From: Brachionus plicatilis
Lineage: Eukaryota > Rotifera > Eurotatoria > Ploima > Brachionidae
Direction: 5' to 3'
NCBI GenBank assembly: GCA_010279815.1
Contig: QEOQ01000212.1
Location: forward strand, 185,080 to 249,079
DNA: 64,000 bases
The notes beneath the pieces are model-generated. The model searched no databases. It had not been told where the DNA came from and was given only the letters and a program-made list of their open reading frames with translations. Every line of letters starts with the position of its first letter. Positions within the stretch are counted from its first letter, which is position 1. Positions 11,645-27,394 of this stretch are shown here, one piece after another. Position numbers and translations under genes: made by a program.

Positions 11645-12940
11645 ATGGCAAACCATAGCTTAAGAGCCCCATCGGTTTTTTCTTTGGATACAAATGTGGA
11701 TATATGGCTAGCAAGATTTGATAATTATCTAGAATTAAACAGAATTCTTGGAGAGTGAGATATGATAAATGTGTACGGATCTTTTTTAGATAATACAACG
11801 TTTAAATTGGTCGATAGTTTGATAAACGAACGGTCATATGATGAAGTTAAAACCAAATTTAGAGCTCTTTTTAGCAGACCAGAATCTTCTGCACATGTTT
11901 ACCTTCATACCTTTGTTGGAAGAGGCCAAGAGTTAAATGAAAGCCTAGTTCAGTATGCGGCGGTACTACAGGAATTAGGACGAAAAGCTTTTCCAGATTT
12001 AAATCTTAGGGAACTAGATATTTATCTTCGAGGTCAATTTCTAGCAGGAGTCCGAGACAGAGAAATGGCTAAAAGATTAGCTGTATTGTATCACGAAAAT
12101 TTAGAGATGTTGGTACTCAGAGCAAGAGAACACGAATGTTACCTTTTGGATTTAGTGGGATTAGAGAGCGAAGCAGAAATATGTTTAATCAAGGAACAGG
12201 AAGACATAAAACATGAAGGAGAAATCAGAAACTTAATTACACCAAAGCTAGAATCGAATATAATGTTTCAAAATCAGAATAAACAATATGAAAATTCACA
12301 AAACAACGTTGAGACAATAAGGAATAGCTATGATAATAGTTTTGTAAATGCTAACTTGTCAAATATGTCCAATTATTCAAAATTGCTAAATAATTCAAAC
12401 GATGGATCGTATCTTAATTCAACAAGTAGGAATTATATGCCAAATTATCCAGTTCAAAAACCAGCAATGAGATGCTTTTTGTGTAATCAGGAAGGACATA
12501 TTAAGAGGAATTGTACTAATGGGATTAGAAATATGAACAATCAATATTATCGATTGGGTTATGATAGCCAATATAGTTCATTGAATAGATCGACACCAAT
12601 GGCAACAATCAGAATTGATCAAAGAAACCAATTTTCTGCTAATACAAATAACATAAATGAAGAGTCAGATAATTACGACTTGAAATATGTTTTCGGGTAC
12701 TTAAATGGAGAAAAGATAGAATGTTTATTAGACACAGGAAGTGTAAAGACGTTAATTAGTCAAAATATCTGGAGAAAACTAGGATGTAAAGAATTACAAA
12801 AAACAAAAGGTTCATTTACGACTGCGAATGGTCAACCATTAAACGTTATTGGATCTTACACGACTTCTCTAAGAATTGGTACTAATGAATTGAAACTTTT
12901 GATGTTTTTGTGGCAGTGGACTTACAACATGATTGCTTAA
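11645..12940 (+). pseudogene. Gag-protease of the Ty3-like element, broken
   Basis: The frame starts at ATG 11645, is interrupted by an in-frame TGA at about 11756, and resumes to 12940. It shows a Ty3-type capsid region (about 11770-12180), a CCHC zinc knuckle CFLCNQEGHIKRNC and the aspartic protease signature CLLDTGSVKTLIS. The frame ends by a shift near 12905, because the natural continuation lies in the next frame (from 12910). The two defects make it inactive as written. Confidence 0.85.
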
Positions 12941-13923
12941 TTGGTCTCGACTATATGGGAAAAGTACAAGGAACTAGGGATAAACTTAAAGAAATTTATA
13001 GTTCTCTAGGTGGAGAAGAAGTAGTAAAAGACAGAAAAAACAAAGCAGTAAATCGAGTTGAATTTTCTAAAGAAGAACAAAAGAGAATAGATTCATTTTT
13101 ATCTGAAAACGAGGATATATTTGCTAAATTTATGAAAGAACTTGGTTGTTGTAATTTTACGATGAATCAGATCGACACACAAAGAAGTGAACCGATACGA
13201 GAGTCAGCCAGGAGAATTCCGCATCACTTAAAAATAGAAATTAAAAAACAATTAGATGAACTTGTGGAAACTAACATATTAGAACCAAGCAATTCAGATT
13301 TGGCTGCACCCCTTGTTCCTGTAAAAATGAAAAACCGCAAGATAAGATTATGTATTGATTACAGGCAACTTAATAAAGTAACAAAGAAAGGCAGCTATCC
13401 AATACAAGGTTGGATGAAACAACAGACAAATTTTTTGGAATCAGATGCTTCAGTACCCTGGATATGGCTAGTGGATACTATCAGATAAAATTGGACCCAA
13501 AAGATAAAGAAATAACGGCTATTACGACACCTTTTTGACTTTTCCATTTTACAAGGATGCCATTTGGATTGACAAACGCACCAGCAACTTTTCAGGGGAT
13601 GATTGATAAAGTTCTAAAGGATATTATTGGAAAATTTTGCTTAGTATACCTGGATGACATAATTGTTTTTTCTAAAACCGTGGACGATCATATCATTCAC
13701 CTTAATCAAAATAATCTTTGATAAATTGAAAGCTGCAACGTTAAAATTAAACAAAGAGAAATGCTTCTTTATGAAAGATGAAGTAATATATTTGGGACAT
13801 GTTATAAATCGAAATAGACTTTTGCCCTATGAAGACAAGGTTAAAGCAATTAAAAACTATAATAAACCTAAATCGGTCAAACAACTTCAGAGTTTTCTCG
13901 GGATCACAGTATTTTATCGGAAA
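12910..13923 (+). pseudogene. Reverse transcriptase of the Ty3-like element, broken
   Basis: Contains the end of protease, then the RT segments IRLCIDYRQLNKVT, LDMASGYYQIKL, RMPFGLTNAPATFQ and the catalytic YLDDI box, and ends with LGHVINRN and QLQSFLGI. The frame shifts near 13405 and 13705 and has a TGA near 13535, so no full protein is possible. The nested DNA transposon starts at 13924, in the RT-RNase H connection. The downstream part resumes at about 24758. Confidence 0.87.
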
Positions 13924-14161
13924 GAACTCTACCGATTTTTCGTACAAAATTGTGCCCCTGTTTAAAAAAATAAAAATAAGAAAAAAAAATTAAATTAAGT
14001 ATTTTCTAGTAGAATAAATGAAAAGTAAGTCCTTTCTAAAGGAATAAGTAAGTTTTAATTGATGGTTGGTCTTTAGTAAGCAAAAAATGGAAAAATCAAA
14101 ACTATCATAACATAATTTTAGTTTTATTTTGAATGTTTGGTAAAATGTTTTTTGGGATTAA

Positions 14162-14212
14162 TGCTTAATGGGATTTCACTAAAAACGGTTTTTAGTGAAA
14201 TCCCATTAAGCA
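14162..14212. repeat. 51-bp near-perfect palindrome
   Basis: Arms of 25 bases reading TGCTTAATGGGATTTCACTA and onward, around a single central G, with no mismatches that I can see. It lies about 240 bp inside the left end of the Spy-like element, just upstream of its first gene. It could form a cruciform, or be a transposase-binding site or bidirectional control element. Confidence 0.8.
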
Positions 14213-14263
14213 AAAAAAAATTATAAATTTTGAATTATTGGTTATTTCTATCCAACTATTATA

Positions 14264-14945
14264 ATGTTAAAAGAAATTTTTTTCAAAAGAATAAATGGTC
14301 AGAAAACAAGTCAAAATATTAAGTTTTTAAAATTTTTTTAATTTAATTAGGTGATCTCCAAAAGGCAAAAGTTTGGTGCATTTTACATGATGACATAATT
14401 GGTGTTACTTGGATGGAAAAAGAAAAGTGCTATATCAAATTCATTACGGCGAAAAGTGTTATACATAGTAAAAAATCATCATTGATTAGCACTTGGTTCC
14501 CAGCAAGTTTAGAAATAACTTGCATATTAAAAATATTTATTATTTTTTTTTTAATTTTATTAATATTGAATGGATTTATGAGCAAGTATGATAAGCTTGT
14601 AAGTGATTATCAAAAATGTTTGATTAAAAAGAAACAGGACATTTTTGACTTTATTTTTCAAATCGATTGCCAAAACAATGCCTCATTTTGGAATGTAATT
14701 TTGTCATTCAATTTAAAAATAAATTCTAATGTTTTTATCTATACAAGGCCTTTTTTGAAACGCTTTTGGATTTTGGTCATTATGTTTCTAGTTTTATTGG
14801 CAGAATAATCAATTCATTTATGTTTTCAACTTTTAGTGGACTTGGAATAATGGACTTTTTCAAATTAATGACTGGACTAGTGACAATTTTAGCTTCCTTA
14901 ATATTTTGTTTTTTTATTATAATATTTTCTGTAAATAAATATTAA
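14264..14945 (+). CDS. Two-pass membrane protein carried by the Spy-like element
   Basis: I model three exons, 14264-14297, 14351-14694 and 14748-14945, with two 53-bp GT-AG introns that keep the frame, giving 191 residues. A first hydrophobic segment lies in the middle (ILKIFIIFFLILLILNGFM) and a second at the C-terminus (TGLVTILASLIFCFFIIIF). Between them is a Lys- and Cys-containing stretch of about 100 residues. I recognise no family. Reading through the second intron would end the protein early and lose the second segment, so the splice is favoured. Its neighbours are other element-borne membrane proteins. The function is unknown. Confidence 0.6.
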
Positions 14946-15066
14946 AAAGAATTTGTAAAATGAACAGCAACATATTTTTTGTATTCAATTGTTTAATAAA
15001 TTAATTCATAATTTAATTTAAAAAATTCAAACGCAATAATAATTAATAAAAAATATTTAAAAAAAA

Positions 15067-15873
15067 TTATTTTTTTTGATTATATAAATATCGTTTTCGT
15101 GCAAACCATAAAACAATTTTTTTCTCAATTAACCCTGTTGACTTTGTCAACGTTTCCAATTGTTTCTTACTTGGATTCTGATTTTTCTGAAAAAAAAACT
15201 GGGATAAGATCAATTTTTGCTCAAGATTCATTGATTTGCTCTTTCCTCCTTTAGCTTTATTTTTCTCTTATATTTAAACCATTGATTTAATTGTTGGTAC
15301 GTGAAATTGCTTTCTTTTGCCAATTGCTTTTTTGTCTTTATATCTGGATATGGTTTTGCTGAGTTATTTAAAAATCAGTGCTCAAGTACGTAAGTTTTTT
15401 TTAAATAATTCTTCTTGAGTTTTTCTTTAGTTTTTAAAAGAAACAAGATTAAATTTAATCATTTATTTATTTTAATATTTGAAAAAATTACTGTTTTTTT
15501 TTCCTTTTACTAAATATTCCTGATTACTTTTTAGAGTTTTCCAACCTATTTCTGTAATAAAACATTTTTTATAAATATTTAATTTTCTGAAAAAAAGGGT
15601 TCCATTTTTTAAAGTTGATTGCGCAAAAAACATGCCACTTTTAGCGGTTAAAATTGATAAATTCCTTCCACTTGCGCATGCTTCTTTAAATACCTTTTTA
15701 TTCAATAAAATCGCTTTTTCTGCAGCCTTTAAACTTTTTTCACAAGAGAATCTAGTGATAAAATATCCCAATTTTAGAGTTTGTTGAGAGTGATAAAATC
15801 CAGCTCTTGTACATTTCCATGATAATTTACAGATTTGTTTCCCAAAAAATAAACATATTGCTAAATTCTTCAT
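15067..15873 (-). pseudogene. Double homeodomain-like gene carried by the Spy-like element
   Basis: On the minus strand an ATG ORF of 127 codons (15873-15492) joins by a 67-bp GT-AG intron to a segment at 15424-15228. That segment carries a homeodomain-like helix pattern, KPYPDIKTKKQLAKES then LNQWFKYKRK. An in-frame TGA falls where helix 1/2 should carry Trp. A second segment (15231-15067, other frame) has a full homeodomain-like unit: LEQKLILSQFF, NPSKKQLETLTKSTGL, IVLWFARKR, stop. Both keep the WF..(K)R core of helix 3 but lack the usual Asn51 (Tyr and Arg instead). The TGA and frame change suggest decay, or an unmodelled intron. The N-terminal 127 residues match nothing I know. Confidence 0.6.
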
Positions 15874-16493
15874 TATTAATTATCCCAATTCTCTAAAATT
15901 ATTTAATGTTAAAAAAATTAATAGAATTAAAGTTAAAAAAGAGTCGAATTTAAAAATTTTTATTTCATATTCAAATCTAAATAAAAATCTGAAATACTTT
16001 AATCGAATAAAAAAATTATTTCCATAAATTCTTCTATCAATTGTTCTCATTTATTCTTTAAATAAATACATAGAAATATTATATTTAATCCATCCAAACA
16101 ATATTTACTCCGCCTGATTCTTTTTTTAACCCACTAAATAAATATTTTCTACTGTTTTCAATTTTTTACCCCACTTCTAATTTTTTTAGCCCTGAATAAT
16201 TTATTTTTAAACCCATTTTTTTCTTAACAATTATATAGGACCAACTACAATTGTGTTGAACTTTGAAACCACAATTGCTTCCTCTTATCATAAAATATTT
16301 ACATTTAATACATTTAAATGTATTTTTTGCAATTTATTTTAATTATTTCAAACATTTTTATTGATTTTTTTGATAAATGACCTGGTAAATTTTTGCATAT
16401 CTATTAACTTCTTATACTATTTAAACAAATGGTTAAATATTTTTTCTCATTTTTCAAGGAAAAAATAATTTTTTAACTTTCATCGAACAAAAA
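15874..16493. other. AT-rich spacer between two divergent cargo genes
   Basis: No ORF is visible. It separates a minus-strand gene from a plus-strand gene, so it should hold two divergent promoters. The CAATTGTG/CACAATTG words near 16250 are the only symmetric motif noticed. Confidence 0.5.
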
Positions 16494-17335
16494 ATGAAGT
16501 TTTTCTTTCTTTTTTGTTATGTTTTCTTATTTGTAAATTGTGAATTGGAAAAAACACAATCAACAATTCGTTTCTTTAGGCAACGAAGAGAAGCACCAAA
16601 ACGCTCTTCTTTACATCATATTTCGGATCAAATTATTAAAGATTCTGAGCTTTTTTTTTGTTTTACATCAAAAGAATGTCAAAAAGTAGATGAGTTTTCG
16701 ATCGCTGAAAATTATACATATAACTGCTACGAGCTGTTTTTACCAATTAATTTCTACCCAAAAATCGAATTAGAGAAAAAAATTGCTGTGTTTGGGTTTA
16801 TTAAAAATGACGGAAGTGTATTAACTGAAAGTCAAAAATATACGGATTCTTGTAGAAAAATAATAAGGTAAATAAAAAGTGTTTAAATGTAAAAAATAAT
16901 ATTTTATTCTATAAGGTTTAACGTAAATGAAAAGTCAGTTCTTATTACAGTTGAAGATAATAAAATATATGCTGATAAAAGAAAAGCCAATTCTATAATA
17001 GGAAATGAGTTATTTTCTAATTCACACTATTTTTTATGGATTATTTTCAAACTTGACATTTATGATGAAGATGCTGATTCGATTGCTTATCTCCGAGCCA
17101 TAATGGTAAATATTTAAGACAATTTTATTAAAGAAATAATTTTGATATTTTTATTAAGGATTTTACGTTTTATTTAACATTTGGAAAGTATCTAATACTT
17201 TTTTGTATAGCCTCTGTAAAAGCATACAATGTTTATTGTAAACATGTAAAGAAACTAGCCAGAAATGAGAAATGTGATTCGGATGATGATGTTGCTGAAA
17301 AAAATAATAAGAAAGTGAAGAAAAAAATGAATTAA
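16494..17335 (+). CDS. Secreted single-pass membrane protein with furin-like site (Spy-like cargo)
   Basis: Three exons, 16494-16867, 16916-17105 and 17159-17335, with 48- and 53-bp GT-AG introns, give 246 residues. The N-terminus is a clear signal peptide (MKFFFLFCYVFLFVNC). The motif RFFRQRREAPKR follows and fits a furin R-x-R-R site. The ectodomain of about 160 residues has several Cys. A membrane segment near YLILFCIASVKAYNVYC precedes a charged, acidic-then-lysine-rich cytoplasmic tail. The layout resembles a type I receptor or an envelope-like glycoprotein, but I recognise no family. Exon phases agree exactly, which supports a real gene. Its tail exon is directly followed by the transposase. 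Confidence 0.65.
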
Positions 17336-17469
17336 AAATATTTTACTTCATTTTAACAAATGCTTAAACTTATTTGGTTGTTATTTTTAATTTTGTTTTA
17401 TTTGTAACTTTTTTCTAAATAAAAATATAAAAGTATTAATTAATCTTTAGATAACAATTAAATTTTAAA

Positions 17470-18697
17470 ATGCTACCTGAAAAATTAAAATGTAAAGGCA
17501 TGATAAAAACTGCTTTTTCTTCTCATAAACGATGTTTTATCTGCAGAGTGTCAAAACCTAAATGGCCTCTAAGAAGAGTTAAACGCGAAACAATAATTGA
17601 TTCATATTTGAGGCATCGAATATTTATTAAAGATCATGCAAGATGTTGTAGTTCACATTTGGATGAAAACTTTTTAATAAAGAATGATTTTTTCCCATTA
17701 ATATCTTATAAGCTTATAAAACCGAGTCGAAGTATTTCAATGATGTTGAACCTAATTCTTGAGCGAAAAATTGGTATATTCGATACTTTTAAAAACATTG
17801 ATCAGTTAAATGATGAAAATTGTATTAAAATTACGGGTTGGACTAAAGAACATTTTCTTAAATTTTCCAAATATGTAACTAGTATAAACGATACCAAAGG
17901 ACGTACAAAAGAACAATTGATAGCTCTTTATCGTTTTTGGCTGAGAAAAGCAACCGATCAGGCTTCATTAGCTATGTTATTTAATAGTTCAACAACTCAA
18001 AATCAGATTAGCCATTATTTAGAACAAATTAGATATGCTGTTTACAAGGATATTGTACCATTTTATTTAGGCTGTAGAAAAGGAAGAAAATTTTTTACTT
18101 CCCATAACAATGCAACAACTTGTGAACTATTTGATTTACAACATGACGAACTTGCAATTTTTGTTGACGGAACTTACTGCAGATGCGAAAAGAGCAAAAA
18201 TAATCAAGTCCAATACGATTGTAATAGTGGACAAAAAAAAGATTCTTTAATAAAGCCATTTTTAATATGCTGTGCTGATGGCTACATAATAGATTGCTAT
18301 GGCCCTTTTAAAGCGAATATGAATGACGCATCAATTCTTGACTACATTTTAGACACAGATGAAGAATTGCTAGGAATACTTGAACCGAAAAAAACATTTT
18401 TTTTTTTGGATAGAGGTGAAATTGTTAATTTTTGATTTAAATATCAATTATAAATTATTTTGTTTTAGGATTTAGAGATCTTTAAAAAGCTGTCAGATGT
18501 TTATAGCTTTAAACCACTGATGCCAACTTGTAAGCAATTAGAAGAATCATTATTTTCTAGTGATAAAAAAGAACAAAAACAGTTGACGGTTGTTCAAACA
18601 ATCAAGACCAGATTTGTGACTAAAGTAATATCTAAAATAACTTTTAGGAAAAAAAATCAGCTAATTTTTAAATTACAGTGTAGATTTATTATAGAAA
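17470..18697 (+). pseudogene. Transposase copy in unit A, 3' truncated
   Basis: Identical to the 5' part of the transposase at 19833: exon 17470-18423 and exon 18469-18624. The start of the next exon (18679) is cut at about 18697 by the internal deletion, just after the codons of the catalytic Glu region. It keeps the zinc-binding N-terminus, the HTH and the first two catalytic acidic positions, but lacks the SWIM and protease regions. It cannot encode a full protein. Confidence 0.8.
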
Positions 18698-19210
18698 CAA
18701 AACAAATTGTTTCTGATGAACCGGATTTTCTTGCAACATGTATCGGCAAGTCTTCAAACATATTATTTTGATTTGTCTAAAATCTTTATAAATTAATTTT
18801 TTTTTATTGAATATAAAATAAAAAAATACCTTGAATTTTTTTCCTTCATTGACATTTTTTTCTTTCCTTTCATTTTTTGAATATATCTGACAACACAAAA
18901 ACAAAATCAATGTGAAAGCTATTAAAGCTAAAAGTCCAATAATAACAAAAACTAGATAATCTGCTCTAATGAATGAAAATTCACATTCAACCTTTGTTTT
19001 TAAAATACTTGTTGCGAAACGAACACGACAGTTCGATAAATAATTTAAGCTTGGATTTAACATTGAAGTTGCAGTGGCAGTCTCTGTAGAAGACGCAATT
19101 GTATTCAAGGTAGTAGTCTCGTTGGTGGTCAGTGTGGTTGCTCTAGTTACACTCTGAGTGTAACTAGAATTCCTGATTGCTTTGAAATATTGTGATAAGC
19201 TTAAAGCCAT
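18697..19210 (-). pseudogene. Mucin-like membrane protein copy in unit A, 3' truncated
   Basis: Duplicate of the gene at 23000-23556. The first exon (from ATG 19210 to about 18830) is intact. The second exon is cut by the internal deletion, so the last residues differ from those of the complete copy. Confidence 0.7.
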
Positions 19211-19832
19211 TGCGTGGATTTGATTTAAGAAGTTTTTAAGTGAGATTTTTAAATGCTAAAATGCTTAGAAAATAAAGTCTCAATGAAATAAGCAAAATTG
19301 CAATTGCTATTTTTTAATTCATTTTGAAAATTTTTTTGATAAATGTTAAGTTAAATTCGCCACTTTTTTTACCATTTTTTTCCCGATCTGGAGACGACAA
19401 CTATTTTTTTTTTCAAATTAAATGGTTGAAAATAAAAAAGGAAAAAAAACCTATCAAAATTCGCTAAAATTAGGCATTTTACTAAAAATTTAAATGACAT
19501 AAAAGGGGGCATTTTTTCAATAGAAATACGGTAGAGTTCTTTATTGAAAACTATGCTAAAATAGCCCAACCCTTGTTTGCTTCATTTAAGAAAAATAAAA
19601 AGTTCGAAGAACATTTTGATGACAAATGTAGTAATGCCTTTGACCTTCTTAAAGATAAAATAACAAGTGAAAATTTTTTTATTTTTAAAATGAATTAAAA
19701 ATATTTTACTTCATTTTAACAAATGCTTAAACTTATTTGGTTGTTATTTTTAATTTTGTTTTATTTGTAACTTTTTTCTAAATAAAAATATAAAAGTATT
19801 AATTAATCTTTAGATAACAATTAAATTTTAAA

Positions 19833-22798
19833 ATGCTACCTGAAAAATTAAAATGTAAAGGCATGATAAAAACTGCTTTTTCTTCTCATAAACGATGTTT
19901 TATCTGCAGAGTGTCAAAACCTAAATGGCCTCTAAGAAGAGTTAAACGCGAAACAATAATTGATTCATATTTGAGGCATCGAATATTTATTAAAGATCAT
20001 GCAAGATGTTGTAGTTCACATTTGGATGAAAACTTTTTAATAAAGAATGATTTTTTCCCATTAATATCTTATAAGCTTATAAAACCGAGTCGAAGTATTT
20101 CAATGATGTTGAACCTAATTCTTGAGCGAAAAATTGGTATATTCGATACTTTTAAAAACATTGATCAGTTAAATGATGAAAATTGTATTAAAATTACGGG
20201 TTGGACTAAAGAACATTTTCTTAAATTTTCCAAATATGTAACTAGTATAAACGATACCAAAGGACGTACAAAAGAACAATTGATAGCTCTTTATCGTTTT
20301 TGGCTGAGAAAAGCAACCGATCAGGCTTCATTAGCTATGTTATTTAATAGTTCAACAACTCAAAATCAGATTAGCCATTATTTAGAACAAATTAGATATG
20401 CTGTTTACAAGGATATTGTACCATTTTATTTAGGCTGTAGAAAAGGAAGAAAATTTTTTACTTCCCATAACAATGCAACAACTTGTGAACTATTTGATTT
20501 ACAACATGACGAACTTGCAATTTTTGTTGACGGAACTTACTGCAGATGCGAAAAGAGCAAAAATAATCAAGTCCAATACGATTGTAATAGTGGACAAAAA
20601 AAAGATTCTTTAATAAAGCCATTTTTAATATGCTGTGCTGATGGCTACATAATAGATTGCTATGGCCCTTTTAAAGCGAATATGAATGACGCATCAATTC
20701 TTGACTACATTTTAGACACAGATGAAGAATTGCTAGGAATACTTGAACCGAAAAAAACATTTTTTTTTTTGGATAGAGGTGAAATTGTTAATTTTTGATT
20801 TAAATATCAATTATAAATTATTTTGTTTTAGGATTTAGAGATCTTTAAAAAGCTGTCAGATGTTTATAGCTTTAAACCACTGATGCCAACTTGTAAGCAA
20901 TTAGAAGAATCATTATTTTCTAGTGATAAAAAAGAACAAAAACAGTTGACGGTTGTTCAAACAATCAAGACCAGATTTGTGACTAAAGTAATATCTAAAA
21001 TAACTTTTAGGAAAAAAAATCAGCTAATTTTTAAATTACAGTGTAGATTTATTATAGAAACAGTAAATGGTAAATTAAAAAGACTAAAAGCTCTTGATAA
21101 CGTAAGGAATTCTGTGATAAATCATATACAAAAAGATTACAGAAACGCATGTGCAATGATAAATTTTTTTCACAAGCCATGTTATCCTGATGGTGAAAAT
21201 TCTAGATCAATTGCAAAGAGGATGAAAAAAAAAGCAAAGGAATACGAAAACGAACTAGAATACTTATTGAAAACACGATTGGACACAAAAGCAACAAAAG
21301 AATTAAAATTTTCTGAAATTGAAGACTTTCCTAGACTATCTAAAACAATAATTATTGAAAATATAATTTTTGGAACATATCAATATAATCAATGTCAAAG
21401 TTATTACGAAGATTTATTGAATAATGAAACATGCTATTTAATATCAGAAAAAAGTTATGAACCAAGAAAAAATGCCGAAAATACTAAAATAATTGCATTT
21501 GAAATAGCATCAAGGCATAAAAGAAGTGAAGTCAAAAAATTTACTAAAAAAAAAAAAAGTTTAAATTGTAAAAAACATTTTAAAAACACTTATAAAGTCT
21601 TTATTAAATATGTCCCGCTTCTAAATGAATGGAGGTCGATAAAAAGTAAATATTTTTCATTGAAATGTTATTTTTAATTTATTTATTAAATTATTTAATC
21701 TGAAGGCTATATTTGCAATTGTATGCCTGGAAGAAAAGTTGTTGGATGTTGTGTTCATGTCGCAACTGTTCTTTGCTTCTTGGCATTTGATAGGTTCCGA
21801 AATATTAGAATAAAAGGAAAACACCTCAAAAAAATATTTATTGATACCGAATCGAATGAAAAACCAAATGAACCAAAACATGTTCGTGTTGAAAGGAAAA
21901 AAAAAGGAAGATTTGTTGAAAGTATAAGTAAAGAAGTTGAAAATGAAAATGACAAAATGAATGAAAATATTTTTAATAATGTTTTTATGAATGAATATCA
22001 AGAAATTCCCTTTATTGAGCAATTTAAAAATCATGTACCTAAATGGGGAGCAAAAATAGTTTAAAACGGAATAAGCAATATAATTTTATCAAACACTTGT
22101 TCAATTGACTATTTCCTTCTCTCGTTATGGTGTGTTTATAAATTAAGAAAAGATTTTTTGTTAGAGTTACCAATTTTAGATTCAACTCAGAATTTGAAAG
22201 ATATTGTAAAATTAATTAATTTTTTAAAATGGGATAAAGCTCGGCAATTATGGATAGAAAACTTTATGAAACTTAGGGTAAAGCCAAAAGAAAACACAAT
22301 TTCGGTTTTCGGTTCTGAGGGTGAAAAAATAATTAAGCACTTAGTTTGTGTTCAAAACCATAAATTAATTCAAAAATGTCGTCAAAATTGCCAAAATAAT
22401 AAAAACGTAATTGTGCGATATAATGCGGAACTAATAATTTTCAAAAAAAAATGAACTTAATACATCTTGATTTTTGCTTTTCAGAAAGATGCAAGTTATG
22501 TCAAACTAAAATAGAATGTGATGTCGAATTTCATACAAATCCGAATTTTGTTTTTATTCAAGCAAGAGAATTTAATGTTTTTTTGAAAGATCTGCCAGTA
22601 GAAATTATCATTGATAAAAGGAGGTTCAAATTGTTAACAGCGACATATTCAAAGTCAGGACATTTTTGGGGAATATTCAATATCGAAGGAGAATTCTATC
22701 TCGTAAACGATTTAGAGCAGAGTGTGAAAAAATTAAATGACAGCCAAAAACAATCCTGTAATCATTCTATAAGTTCTACTTTATATTTTTTAGTATAG
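19833..22798 (+). pseudogene. Spy-like DDE transposase joined to SWIM-like and cysteine-protease-like regions
   Basis: Exons 19833-20786, 20832-20987, 21042-21645 and 21706 onward have 45-, 54- and 60-bp introns. Order: an N-terminal Cys/His zinc region (CFICRVSK, CCSSHL); an HTH of the DDE_Tnp_4-associated type (RTKEQLIALYRFWLRKATDQ); then catalytic D in IFVDGTYC, D in ANMNDAS, the DRGEID motif and E in CRFIIETVNGKLK. A SWIM-like CNC...GCCVH zinc motif follows at 21706. After an in-frame TAA (22062-22064) comes a protease-like region with NTCSID (Cys codon 22098), SGHFWG (His) and VNDLE. A nine-A run near 22443-22451 causes a frame change. The two breaks make it a pseudogene as assembled, though the homopolymer one could be a sequencing error. 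Role: cut-and-paste transposition. Confidence 0.78.
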
Positions 22799-22999
22799 TA
22801 AATAAAAAAATAAAATTAGAAAAAATTTTTAATGCAATTTTTTTGGAATATTTTGATTTTAAATAAACAATGGAAAAATAACATTTTTTTTAATTTACAC
22901 ATTTTCATTTTTAAATTTAATCACACAGGCGCTTAAAAACTTTAACAAACATAACCTGGTAACATTAATATTTAATAAGTTTTAATAAAAAAAAAACAA
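22799..22999. other. Short AT-rich gap between convergent cargo genes
   Basis: Nothing is seen beyond the end of the transposase frame on the left and the stop of the minus-strand gene on the right. AT runs here probably hold both polyadenylation sites. Confidence 0.5.
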
Positions 23000-23556
23000 T
23001 CAAAACAAAGCATTTTGGCCAAAACTTCCCAAAGCCTTTGATTCCAAACAAATTGTTTCTGATGAACCGGATTTTCTTGCAACATGTATCGGCAAGTCTT
23101 CAAACATATTATTTTGATTTGTCTAAAATCTTTATAAATTAATTTTTTTTTATTGAATATAAAATAAAAAAATACCTTGAATTTTTTTCCTTCATTGACA
23201 TTTTTTTCTTTCCTTTCATTTTTTGAATATATCTGACAACACAAAAACAAAATCAATGTGAAAGCTATTAAAGCTAAAAGTCCAATAATAACAAAAACTA
23301 GATAATCTGCTCTAATGAATGAAAATTCACATTCAACCTTTGTTTTTAAAATACTTGTTGCGAAACGAACACGACAGTTCGATAAATAATTTAAGCTTGG
23401 ATTTAACATTGAAGTTGCAGTGGCAGTCTCTGTAGAAGACGCAATTGTATTCAAGGTAGTAGTCTCGTTGGTGGTCAGTGTGGTTGCTCTAGTTACACTC
23501 TGAGTGTAACTAGAATTCCTGATTGCTTTGAAATATTGTGATAAGCTTAAAGCCAT
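23000..23556 (-). CDS. Mucin-like single-pass membrane protein (Spy-like cargo)
   Basis: On the minus strand, exons 23556-23176 and 23122-23000 are joined by a 53-bp GT-AG intron in phase 0, giving 167 residues. The N-terminal half is Thr/Ser-rich (TTLTTNETTTLNTIASSTE) and looks heavily O-glycosylated. A single membrane segment, VFVIIGLLALIAFTLILFLC, follows and then a basic juxtamembrane region and short tail. No cleavable signal peptide is obvious, so it may use the membrane segment as anchor. The family is not recognised. It is the last gene before the right terminus and faces the transposase. Its conserved splice and near-identical copy at 18697-19210 support a real gene. Confidence 0.6.
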
Positions 23557-24034
23557 TGCGTGGATTTGATTTAAGAAGTTTTTAAGTGAGATTTTTAAAT
23601 GCTAAAATGCTTAGAAAATAAAGTCTCAATGAAATAAGCAAAATTGCAATTGCTATTTTTTAATTCATTTTGAAAATTTTTTTGATAAATGTTAAGTTAA
23701 ATTCGCCACTTTTTTTACCATTTTTTTCCCGATCTGGAGACGACAACTATTTTTTTTTTTCAAATTAAATGGTTGAAAATAAAAAAGGAAAAAAAACCTA
23801 TCAAAATTCGCTAAAATTAGGCATTTTACTAAAAATTTAAATGACATAAAAGGGGGCATTTTTTCAATAGAAATACGGTAGAGTTCTTTATTGAAAACTA
23901 TGCTAAAATAGCCCAACCCTTGTTTGCTTCATTTAAGAAAAATAAAAAGTTCGAAGAACATTTTGATGACAAATGTAGTAATGCCTTTGACCTTCTTAAA
24001 GATAAAATAACAAGTGAAAATTTTTTTATTTTTA

Positions 24035-24757
24035 AAATGAATTAAAAATATTTTACTTCATTTTAACAAATGCTTAAACTTATTTGGTTGTTATTTTTAA
24101 TTTTGTTTTATTTGTAACTTTTTTCTAAATAAAAATATAAAAGTATTAATTAATCTTTAGATAACAATTAAATTTTAAAATGCTACCTGAAAAATTAAAA
24201 TGTAAAGGCATGATAAAAACTGCTTTTTCTTCTCATAAACGATGTTTTATCTGCAGAGTGTCAAAACCTAAATGGCCTCTAAGAAGAGTTAAACGCGAAA
24301 CAATAATTGATTCATATTTGAGGCATCGAATATTTATTAAAGATCATGCAAGATGTTGTAGTTCACATTTGGATGAAAACTTTTTAATAAAGAATGATTT
24401 TTTCCCATTAATATCTTATAAGCTTATAAAACCGAGTCGAAGTATTTCAATGATGTTGAACCTAATTCTTGAGCGAAAAATTGGTATATTCGATACTTTT
24501 AAAAACATTGATCAGTTAAATGATGAAAATTGTATTAAAATTACGGGTTGGACTAAAGAACATTTTCTTAAATTTTCCAAATATGTAACTAGTATAAACG
24601 ATACCAAAGGACGTACAAAAGAACAATTGATAGCTCTTTATCGTTTTTGGTTGAGAAAAGCAACCGATCAGGCTTCATTAGCTATGTTATTTAATAGTTC
24701 AACAACTCAAAATCAGATTAGCCATTATTTAGAACAAATTAGATATGCTGTTTACAA
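24035..24757 (+). repeat. Tandem unit C (truncated)
   Basis: Repeats the start of units A and B (from the 17327-equivalent position) and breaks off within the transposase at TTTACAA. It joins directly to Ty3 DNA (ATAGCCCAACCC), with only two or so bases of microhomology. It carries at least one substitution (TTGGTTGAG for TTGGCTGAG) relative to A and B. Confidence 0.85.
24180..24757 (+). pseudogene. Transposase copy in unit C, truncated
   Basis: First 192 codons of the transposase only: zinc region and HTH. It is cut before the catalytic residues by the junction with Ty3 sequence at about 24757. Confidence 0.8.
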
Positions 24758-27394
24758 ATAGCCCAACCCTTGTTTGCTTCATTTAAGAATAATAAAAAGT
24801 TCGAAGAACATTTTGATGACAAATGTAGTAATGCCTTTGACCTTCTTAAAGATAAAATAACAAGTGAAAATTTTCTTATTTTTCCGAATTTCGATGAAGT
24901 TTTCAAGCTGGAAACGGATGCAAGTGATGTTGGTATAGCAGGTGTACTCTCTCAAAAAAGAAATGGTGAATGGAAACCGATTGCATATTAGAGTAGACAG
25001 TTGACCTATGCAGAAAGAAATTATTCAACAACAGAAAAAGAAGCCTTAGCGATAGTGTGTGGTGTGGACCATTTTCGTATTTATCTTTATGGTCAAGTAT
25101 TTATTATTTGCACTGACCATCAACCTTTAAAATGGATGTTCAACATCAAAGAGCCTCAACCAAGATTCGCAAGATGGATTATGAAATTAAGTGAATATCA
25201 ATTTTAAATTGAATAAAAACCTGGAAAAAGAACGGGAACGCGGATGGTCTGTCGCGTTGGCCTAAAATAGAAGAAAGACCCGAAGAATTAAATGGCGAGG
25301 AAGATACGATAATTGAAAGCATCCCAAGTACTAATCTGATAGGCTTTCAGACAACCGATATAAATCCTCAGTTGCACGACAAGGAAATCGAAACAGTTTT
25401 AGGTTGGAAAGACGCATCGGAAAATAGACCGCATAATCAAAGTCTTAGTGGCGACCTCAGAACTTATTGGTTACAATGGGACAGATTAAGAGTGATAAAT
25501 GGCGTGTTGTATAGAATATGGAAAATATGTGGTAACCAGGTACGGTATCAGTTCCCTAGAACGATGAGAAAAGATATTCTAAGGCAAATGCATGATTCAG
25601 AATTAGGTGGACATTTTGGAATGACAACAACGGCCGGGAAGATCTAATCAAAATATTACTGGCCTGGACAGCATAAAGAAATAGATGATTACTTACGGAA
25701 TTGTATTAAGTGTCAAGAAGCTAAAAAAAATGGAATCCTGAAGAGGTCCTCTACAGCCCATCATTACTTCAAGACCATTTCAACTAGTTACTTGTGAAAT
25801 ATTGGGTCCACTTCCAGTAACAAAAGACGGTGTAAAATAATTAATAAACTTCATTTGTCACTTCACTAAATGGATTGAATTGTACAGCCTTAAAACATTA
25901 GAGGCAAATGAAGCATTCATAGGCAATTTGAAAAATTATTCAAATTTGAAAAATGTTTTTTCAACTTTGGATCAATTTGTATTTAACAATTCTCTCAATT
26001 ATTTCAACTATTCAACTATTCCAAATGTACATGAAATAAATAATTAAAGGGATTTTTATATTGATAAAAATTTAAAAAGTTGAAGAAAGTTATACATTTG
26101 GATAAGTTGAATAATTGAAATAATTGAAGGGGTTTTTATATTAATAAAAATTGAAAAAGTTAAAGAAAGTTGAAGAAAGTTGAATAACTGTAATAGTTGA
26201 ATAATTGAAATAATTGAAGGAGTTTTATGGATAAGAATTGAAAAAGTTGAGGAAAGTTCAAGAAAGAAATACAATTATTTGAATAATTGAAAAGTTGAAT
26301 AATAACAGTAAATTGCCCATTAGTCAAATGAAGTGGCAAAGTGCTTTTTGGACCTAGTTTGTAGACATGGTGTACCAGAGAGTTTCTTGTCAGATCAAGG
26401 AAGGAATTTTGTGTCAAACCTTTTTAGAGAAGTTTTAGAATTACTTGACGTTCATAAATTAAGAGCTTCTTCTTACCATCCACAATGTGACGGACAGACA
26501 GAAAGATTTAATAGAACGTTGATTTCAATGATGAAAGTTTTTATAAATGAAAATCAGGATAATTGGGATATCCTGTTGAACAAAATGGCTTTCGCTTACA
26601 GAACTGCTGTACACAGGACAACTGGACAAACCCCATTTGAATTAGTTTACGAAAGGAAACAGAAGTTTCCTATTGATTTGGTTTTTCCAAGTGAAAATGG
26701 TTCTGTTGTAATAAACTACTGTGATTATGTTAATGACCTAAAGGAAAGATTGATATCCTTATATGATATAGTTAAGAAGCATTCTGGCATGAAGATCGAT
26801 CGAATGAAAATAAACTATGATAGAAATGTAAAGCAGAAGAATTATTACATTGGTGATAAAGTCTGGCTATTGAACTCGGAGAAAAAGAAAGGGAAGAATC
26901 CTAAGCTATCTAAATCGTGGAAAGGACCTTATGAAGTGTTGGCTAAAATATCAGAACTTACCTAAAAAAATAAACAGATAAACGGAAAGAAGAAGCTGAT
27001 TGTGAACATAAAAAGAATTAAAAAATGCTTTATGCTAGCCGTCCAGCAAGAGGAAATTTCTCTGTCTCAAGAACAAAACATTACAATAAATGAAGATGGT
27101 AATGAAAACAACCTGGATTCTCCTCGTCTCCCTTCTTGTGATGCAGAAAATTATCATCATATTCCAGAAGACCTTTCGCCGATGTCTCAAGTCATGCCGG
27201 TTCGATCAGATTCTGAAGACCTAAGTCCATCAGAATGTAATCAGTTTGCAGAGTCTGAAAACAGGGCAGTGATTCTTCCGGACCTTAACAATAAAAATCT
27301 GCCTACAAAAAAAAGGAATGAGGAAGACCTAGGGAGATCTGTAGCACCAGTAAGTATCGAAGTAGAATACAACCATCAAGAAAAGTTAAAATGA
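24758..27394 (+). pseudogene. RNase H-integrase part of the Ty3-like polymerase, broken
   Basis: Continues the polymerase after the nested transposon. RNase H comes first (LETDASDVGIAGVLSQK, AERNYSTTEKEALAIV, CTDHQPLKW), then the H2C2 integrase zinc domain (HDSELGGHFG, CIKCQEAK) and the catalytic core (LSDQGRNFVS, HPQCDGQTERFNRTL), followed by a C-terminal basic region (VNIKRIKKCF) and an acidic tail to 27394. Stops occur near 24991, 25207 and 25645, and near 26963. The core is also split by a 411-bp insertion at 25914-26324. It is inactive. Confidence 0.87.
25914..26324. mobile_element. 411-bp MITE inserted in the integrase core
   Basis: The nine bases CAAATGAAG occur immediately on both sides (25905-25913 and 26325-26333). 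Removing the insert restores a continuous integrase frame. Ends share an imperfect inverted AGGCAATTT/AAATTGCCC. The interior holds three degenerate tandem copies of a unit of about 75 bp containing GAATAATTGAAATAATTGAA. The 8-9-bp duplication suggests a hAT-like origin. It has no coding capacity. Confidence 0.75.

Follow-up and report, generated by a model that had tools for sequence, protein, structure and literature searches.

A transposon occupies positions 13924–23886 on the forward strand of a 64,000-nucleotide stretch of the genome of the rotifer Brachionus plicatilis (assembly GCA_010279815.1, contig QEOQ01000212.1, positions 185,080 to 249,079; the whole stretch is referred to here as the window), internal partial duplications included. 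The genome analysed comprises 102.9 Mb in 173 contigs, and relatives of the element are named below by contig label (C29, C130, and so on). Its limits are defined by termini, flanks, and empty sites, and it carries five distinct genes—TM2, HD, SP, TP (the transposase), and MU—with TP and MU partly repeated. Collapsing the duplications at their breakpoints (13924–18699 joined to 21063–23886) leaves an element of 7,600 bp. A preliminary description of this DNA had posited a cargo-carrying DNA transposon of about 7.6 kb, which is borne out here, and had modeled six genes, where five distinct ones are present; the partial duplication that it reported for the transposase and mucin-like genes agrees with the repeats seen in the window.

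The ends of the element read GAACTCTACCG...CGGTAGAGTTC, at 13924 and 23886, and belong to a left terminal inverted repeat (13924–13964, forward strand; GAACTCTACCG...TGCCCC) and a right terminal inverted repeat (23845–23886, reverse strand), with a second copy of the latter at 19498–19539 providing an extra right terminus inside the element, at 19539. On the outside, AAA borders the left terminus and TTT the right. The joined flanks of the insertion match seven genomic places full-length at 94–96%. At the two of these that were inspected at sequence level, AAATTT is uninterrupted and no bases are repeated, indicating that insertion caused no duplication. The same AAA/TTT insertion without target-site duplication was observed for all five insertions whose two ends were located. 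The host of the insertion is the pol gene of a Ty3-type retrotransposon, a label drawn from its open reading frames (ORFs), and this retrotransposon spans 11759–13923 and 23887–26965.

Of the four passenger genes, TM2 (14347–14945, forward strand) is predicted from hydropathy to encode a membrane protein with two hydrophobic stretches, in two exons separated by an intron at 14695–14747. Its start exon is a candidate only; homologues lie in C130 and C72, and another in C94 was recognized by eye and alignment. Weak alignment rows of TM2 in Pfam (Nairovirus_Gn at E 2, and two others) were taken as chance. HD (15065–15879, reverse strand), which is broken in the window, is a double-homeodomain protein gene, its first homeodomain being of the TALE type (PF05920, with E values of 3e-14 in C29, 7.4e-13 in C130, and 4.3e-12 in C94) and its second matching PF00046 in C29 and C130 and lying in another frame in C94. 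The two share one open frame in C29 (133 amino acids covering both) and in C130, and the frame between them is broken in C94 and in the window. The homeodomain-like gene of the preliminary description is thus one with two homeodomains. In searches of solved structures, PBX1 and TGIF2LX top the lists for HD, with DUX4 lower. Seven further rows of the homeodomain search (23–40% identity) lie away from the element and may represent host homeobox genes.

HD is transcribed away from SP, across a gap of about 600 bp. SP (16494–17335, forward strand) has three exons (introns at 16868–16915 and 17106–17158) and encodes a protein with a signal peptide, an RQRR furin-like motif, and one membrane span. 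MU (22972–23556, reverse strand; partial second copy at 18689–19210) encodes a single-pass membrane protein whose outer part is rich in Ser and Thr (in C29, 35% over a stretch of 65 residues). The introns of the element, including the two in TP, measure 48, 53, 53, 53, and 60 bp. Only those of 48 and 60 bp are divisible by three, so that the earlier "in-phase" holds for part of the set. Three of the five intron sites match in C130 (the TM2 intron, SP intron 2, and the first transposase intron); no counterpart of SP intron 1 or transposase intron 2 was found in C130 within the ranges scanned, and the C130 acceptor at SP intron 1 looks altered by eye.

TP (19833–22798, forward strand; introns at 20779–20831 and 21646–21705), also broken in the window, encodes a THAP-like C2CH finger, a DDE core, a SWIM-like motif, and a peptidase-like tail. 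Its third exon is open in the C29 copy (366 amino acids). The protease-like tail had been recognized in the preliminary description, and is specified here as one probably resembling ubiquitin-specific proteases (USPs). A sequence search with the exon bearing the SWIM-like and USP-like parts returned no match among solved structures, and viral contigs scanned with the transposase alignment yielded no relative. With an E limit of 0.001, 182 proteins homologous to the transposase core were found in public databases; nearly all of the 120 listed are unnamed or "hypothetical" proteins from short contigs, forming a diverse and almost undescribed group, and the precomputed annotation of some of them includes the Pfam DDE model PF13359 (DDE_Tnp_4). 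Where the protein lists give a species for a relative, it is Brachionus calyciflorus or B. plicatilis, and single passenger proteins were found in B. plicatilis as well.

Inside the window element, the full TP copy is preceded by a truncated copy of the transposase 5′ part (17470–18699, forward strand), followed by a duplicated right end together with 147 bp of host sequence (18700–19686, forward strand). A third partial copy of the transposase 5′ part lies beyond the right terminus (24034–24755, forward strand). The repeats at 17324–24883 resemble a tandem triplication of a unit running from the transposase 5′ part to the right end plus host sequence, with units 1 and 3 differing in internal deletions, be this real or an effect of assembly. 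These duplicated segments, with exact repeats of up to 1,376 bp in the window, could suggest that the whole arrangement is an assembly artefact. Such an explanation could apply at most to the duplications, and we regard it as scarcely credible, because the copies in C29, C55, and C130 carry the genes on other contigs without these duplications; furthermore, SP relatives occur in other assemblies.

Two damaged close copies were found in the genome, at C29:1011486-1017101 and C55:933142-940228, with 97–99% identity per aligned block. The C29 copy keeps both ends and has lost SP and part of TP to an internal deletion, leaving four genes, and the C55 copy retains remnants of all five genes but lacks the left end. 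Relative to the C29 copy, the window HD contains one stop and one frame-breaking length difference, and the window TP two frame-breaking length differences and one stop.

A more distant, full-length element was identified in C130. It measures 7,922 bp, and its 56-bp terminal repeats (73% complementary) are bordered by AAA and TTT. Between these termini, which are of the kind seen in the window element, all five genes recur in unchanged order and orientation; frame defects are present here as well. Protein identity ranges from 29 to 69% by segment, with the transposases being 69% identical. Thus, the search proposed in the preliminary description, for the same gene set between the same termini, succeeded within this genome. 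Parts of the set also occur in C94, C74, C91, C72, and C29:1037k, for which no termini were located; an internally deleted derivative at C39:809501-813000 keeps TM2, part of SP, and MU; and MU adjoins a transposase end in C15. Because the passenger set is kept in so distant a relative, the passengers look like working parts rather than accidental cargo.

The genome searches scored best candidates only, and the following counts of places are therefore lower bounds. Matches of SP (15 rows) fell in 11 places, nine of them within 5 kb of a transposase match; the exceptions are C39, where TM2 and MU remnants are also present, and C125, with a weak SP match at 105716. Matches of TM2 lay within 5 kb of a transposase match in five of seven places, the exceptions being C39 and C72:280k. 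Cargo separated from the element, which together with cargo-free copies had been named as grounds for rejecting the preliminary description, was thus not the pattern found.

Selection on the passengers was assessed from synonymous (dS) and nonsynonymous (dN) divergence. Pairwise dN/dS among the close copies gave no clear signal (ratios of 0.1 to 1.7), because changes were few and counts were inflated by frame-broken stretches, and the comparison between families was used instead. With the window or C29 copy compared to C130, dS exceeded dN in every one of 13 segments, which together represent all five genes (dN 0.22–0.61; dS from 1.0 to saturation); the margins are narrowest for TM2 and for the first exon of HD. 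Such a pattern indicates that the passengers were selected as proteins, and is expected if all of them worked as proteins while the element moved. Together, the comparisons show that the five genes have been inherited together and, as judged from their substitution patterns, selected as proteins.

A single-gene element also occurs in the genome, at C19:240281-243938 and C3:2684912-2688570 (3,658–3,659 bp, with terminal repeats and AAA/TTT outside); the two are 99.1% identical over 3,685 columns. In the C3 copy, which looks young, the DDE, SWIM-like, and USP-like parts all lie in one uninterrupted frame of 1,055 amino acids; the 10-kb stretches examined around the two copies revealed no passenger. 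In a transposase tree of 24 cores, drawn from this genome and database homologues only (one of 25 rows having been dropped as too short), seven SP-bearing rows and seven SP-less rows fell on opposite sides of a branch with support of 99/98, and C19 and C3 lie across this branch from the SP-bearing rows. The remaining 10 rows carry no label, being nine database proteins lacking context and one row of this genome. Absence of SP was judged in the fetched flanks and is less certain in five of the seven SP-negative rows, whose flanks were only about 1.5 kb. A single gain of the passengers fits this tree without being proven by it, SP alone having been tested.

That a single-gene relative shares the transposase architecture, and that other DNA transposons are known to capture genes, might suggest that a simple Spy-like transposon captured host genes by chance in one lineage, and that the passengers have no role. 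Chance capture in a single copy is ruled out by C130 and by the excess of dS over dN. In its broader form this explanation is very improbable, given that C130 repeats the whole set in the same order and six other places (C91, C94, C74, C72, C39, and C29:1037k) repeat part of it, that dS is the larger in every segment, and that no host-like copy of SP or TM2 was seen among the places examined (C125 and C72:280k left out).

Several known systems resemble the element. Spy elements are defined by insertion at AAATTT without duplication in the available text of one study (PMC4482050), and the accessible part of a survey of 182 such transposons from 172 species of Arthropoda, Cnidaria, and Mollusca gives intact elements of 1,165–5,910 bp with one ORF (one or two according to its discussion) of about 700 amino acids (PMC11304231), in line with the single-gene character attributed to Spy in the preliminary description. 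AAA/TTT insertion without target-site duplication, terminal inverted repeats, and a DDE transposase with an N-terminal DNA-binding part are common to Spy and the window element. Unlike Spy, the window and C130 elements measure 7.6–7.9 kb, carry five genes and a USP-like tail, and reside in a rotifer; the single-gene form is that seen in C3 and C19. ISL2EU elements, defined in the same available text by AT duplications with THAP and YqaJ (PMC4482050), belong to the PIF/Harbinger-ISL2EU-Spy (PHIS) superfamily, to which the window element is probably also to be assigned, and share with it a THAP (here THAP-like) part in the transposase and one or more genes beyond the transposase. Neither their 2-bp AT target duplication nor their second protein, a YqaJ nuclease, was seen here, YqaJ giving no match at E up to 1 in ten window ORFs scanned. 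PIF/Harbinger elements have a 3-bp TWA target duplication and a Myb/SANT second protein; the window element has no such duplication, and Myb/SANT gave no match among the ten ORFs.

The probable architecture of TP, in which a de-ubiquitinating type of cysteine protease follows a DDE transposase at the C-terminus, has precedents in Ginger transposases with Ulp1 or OTU and in a Trichomonas transposase_11 protein with Peptidase C19, the latter being of the peptidase family that the TP tail probably resembles (PMC2836005). The Ginger transposase is a different one, and no homeodomain or membrane-protein passengers are described in the available text of that source (PMC2836005). TET/JBP genes in fungal DNA transposons are a further example of passengers, thought to serve the transposon itself; according to the accessible text they represent one enzyme gained by several lineages (PMC12730594), in contrast to the fixed set of four passengers in the window element. 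In the literature searched, which included few subscription papers, neither a rotifer Spy element nor a relevant transposon-borne homeodomain gene was found. Titles and the beginnings of abstracts on Brachionus and Harbinger elements, on transposases with SWIM, Ulp1, or USP parts, on peptidase C19 and Harbinger, and on Mavericks and fusogens likewise revealed no comparable element. As far as these searches could tell, the element is thus an undescribed, passenger-bearing variant of a known transposon kind. An IS5-like transposon of a bdelloid rotifer, reportedly described by Gladyshev and Arkhipova in 2009 (cited in PMC2836005), stands outside this comparison.

Taken together, we consider it highly probable that the element, in the genome of a brachionid rotifer, is a DNA transposon of the PHIS kind that moves by cut and paste and carries several genes. 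Several observations weigh against this reading. PF13359 scores under its cut-off on the window protein (E 0.0011), and the THAP-like and SWIM-like labels derive from residue patterns and known signatures, with no domain match. The USP-like model reached a mean predicted local distance difference test score (pLDDT) of 55 from five sequences, with low Foldseek TM-scores of 0.24–0.35 by query length, and the C-terminal domain of TP is for this reason only likely to resemble USPs by fold. SP, TM2, and MU match no Pfam family at the Pfam cut-off, so that their roles are proposed from their anatomy. By score, C94 and C74 yielded no MU, and C74 no TM2. With respect to present activity, the window copy is broken, and the C29, C55, and C130 elements each have at least one defect.

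In the proposed mechanism, the zinc finger of the transposase would bind the terminal repeats, and the DDE core would cut and join the DNA. The USP-like tail may free the transposase, or repair factors at the break, of ubiquitin or a ubiquitin-like tag. Time and place of expression of the element's own genes would be set by the double-homeodomain protein. The three membrane proteins might act at the cell surface, aiding passage between cells or hosts or altering the host cell in the element's favor, and cell-surface transmission or host-cell manipulation is our best guess for their role. Maverick/Polinton elements are DNA transposons with envelope-like fusogens, larger and endowed with capsid and polymerase genes. 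A membrane protein suspected of aiding host-to-host transfer is common to Mavericks and the window element, whereas no capsid or polymerase match was obtained in the ten window ORFs scanned.

Alternatively, the passengers may work within the host: by redirecting cell fate or signaling, the double-homeodomain and membrane proteins would increase transmission through eggs, and the element would not leave its host. In agreement with this proposal, which we hold to be somewhat unlikely, proteins with a TALE-type homeodomain belong to a developmental class of regulators, the membrane proteins are small and pass the membrane once or twice, and no capsid match was obtained in the ten ORFs scanned. 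It is unlikely that the element is a virus-like one reduced to, or joined with, a transposon, its membrane proteins being small envelope or fusion proteins for cell-to-cell transfer. Glycoprotein B recurs among the structure matches of SP (12 of 24 rows in one listing), but these matches are non-significant (Foldseek E 0.43–8.6, all Z < 5), as is the best one (E 0.018), to an uncharacterized entomopoxvirus protein. Because the underlying SP model is poor (mean pLDDT 43.7), they serve as a lead only. Sequence searches of PDB and Pfam gave no glycoprotein B match for SP, the lack of capsid and polymerase matches in the ten ORFs scanned also speaks against a viral origin, and the RQRR motif is not present in SP of C94 and C74.

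Returning to the multi-gene PHIS-type transposon, a bolder version of the proposal, and rather an unlikely one, is that of a small transposon with its own transmission kit: a double-homeodomain switch for the timing of expression, along with three surface proteins, of which one is perhaps a reduced glycoprotein B-like fusogen, for capsid-free passage between cells or hosts. If true, such an element would stand between transposons and viruses. DNA transposons that move by cut and paste are commonly regarded as parasites of one or two genes. The window element, with its developmental-type transcription factor and three membrane proteins in a stable set of five genes, suggests that such a transposon is able to hold an entire program under selection. 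It offers a concrete case in which to ask what a transposon needs surface proteins for and by what route DNA transposons pass between cells and between species. It also adds rotifers, which are culturable and testable, to the known hosts of AAA/TTT-inserting elements.

Two minor features remain. A 6,302-amino-acid "open frame" at C74:313915 is explained at least partly by its entering an N stretch (C74:314000-315000). In addition, a fully complementary inverted repeat with 25-bp arms and a 1-base loop lies inside the element at 14162–14212, about 240 bp from the left end; among the matches listed, it is present in the C29 and C55 copies and at no further place.

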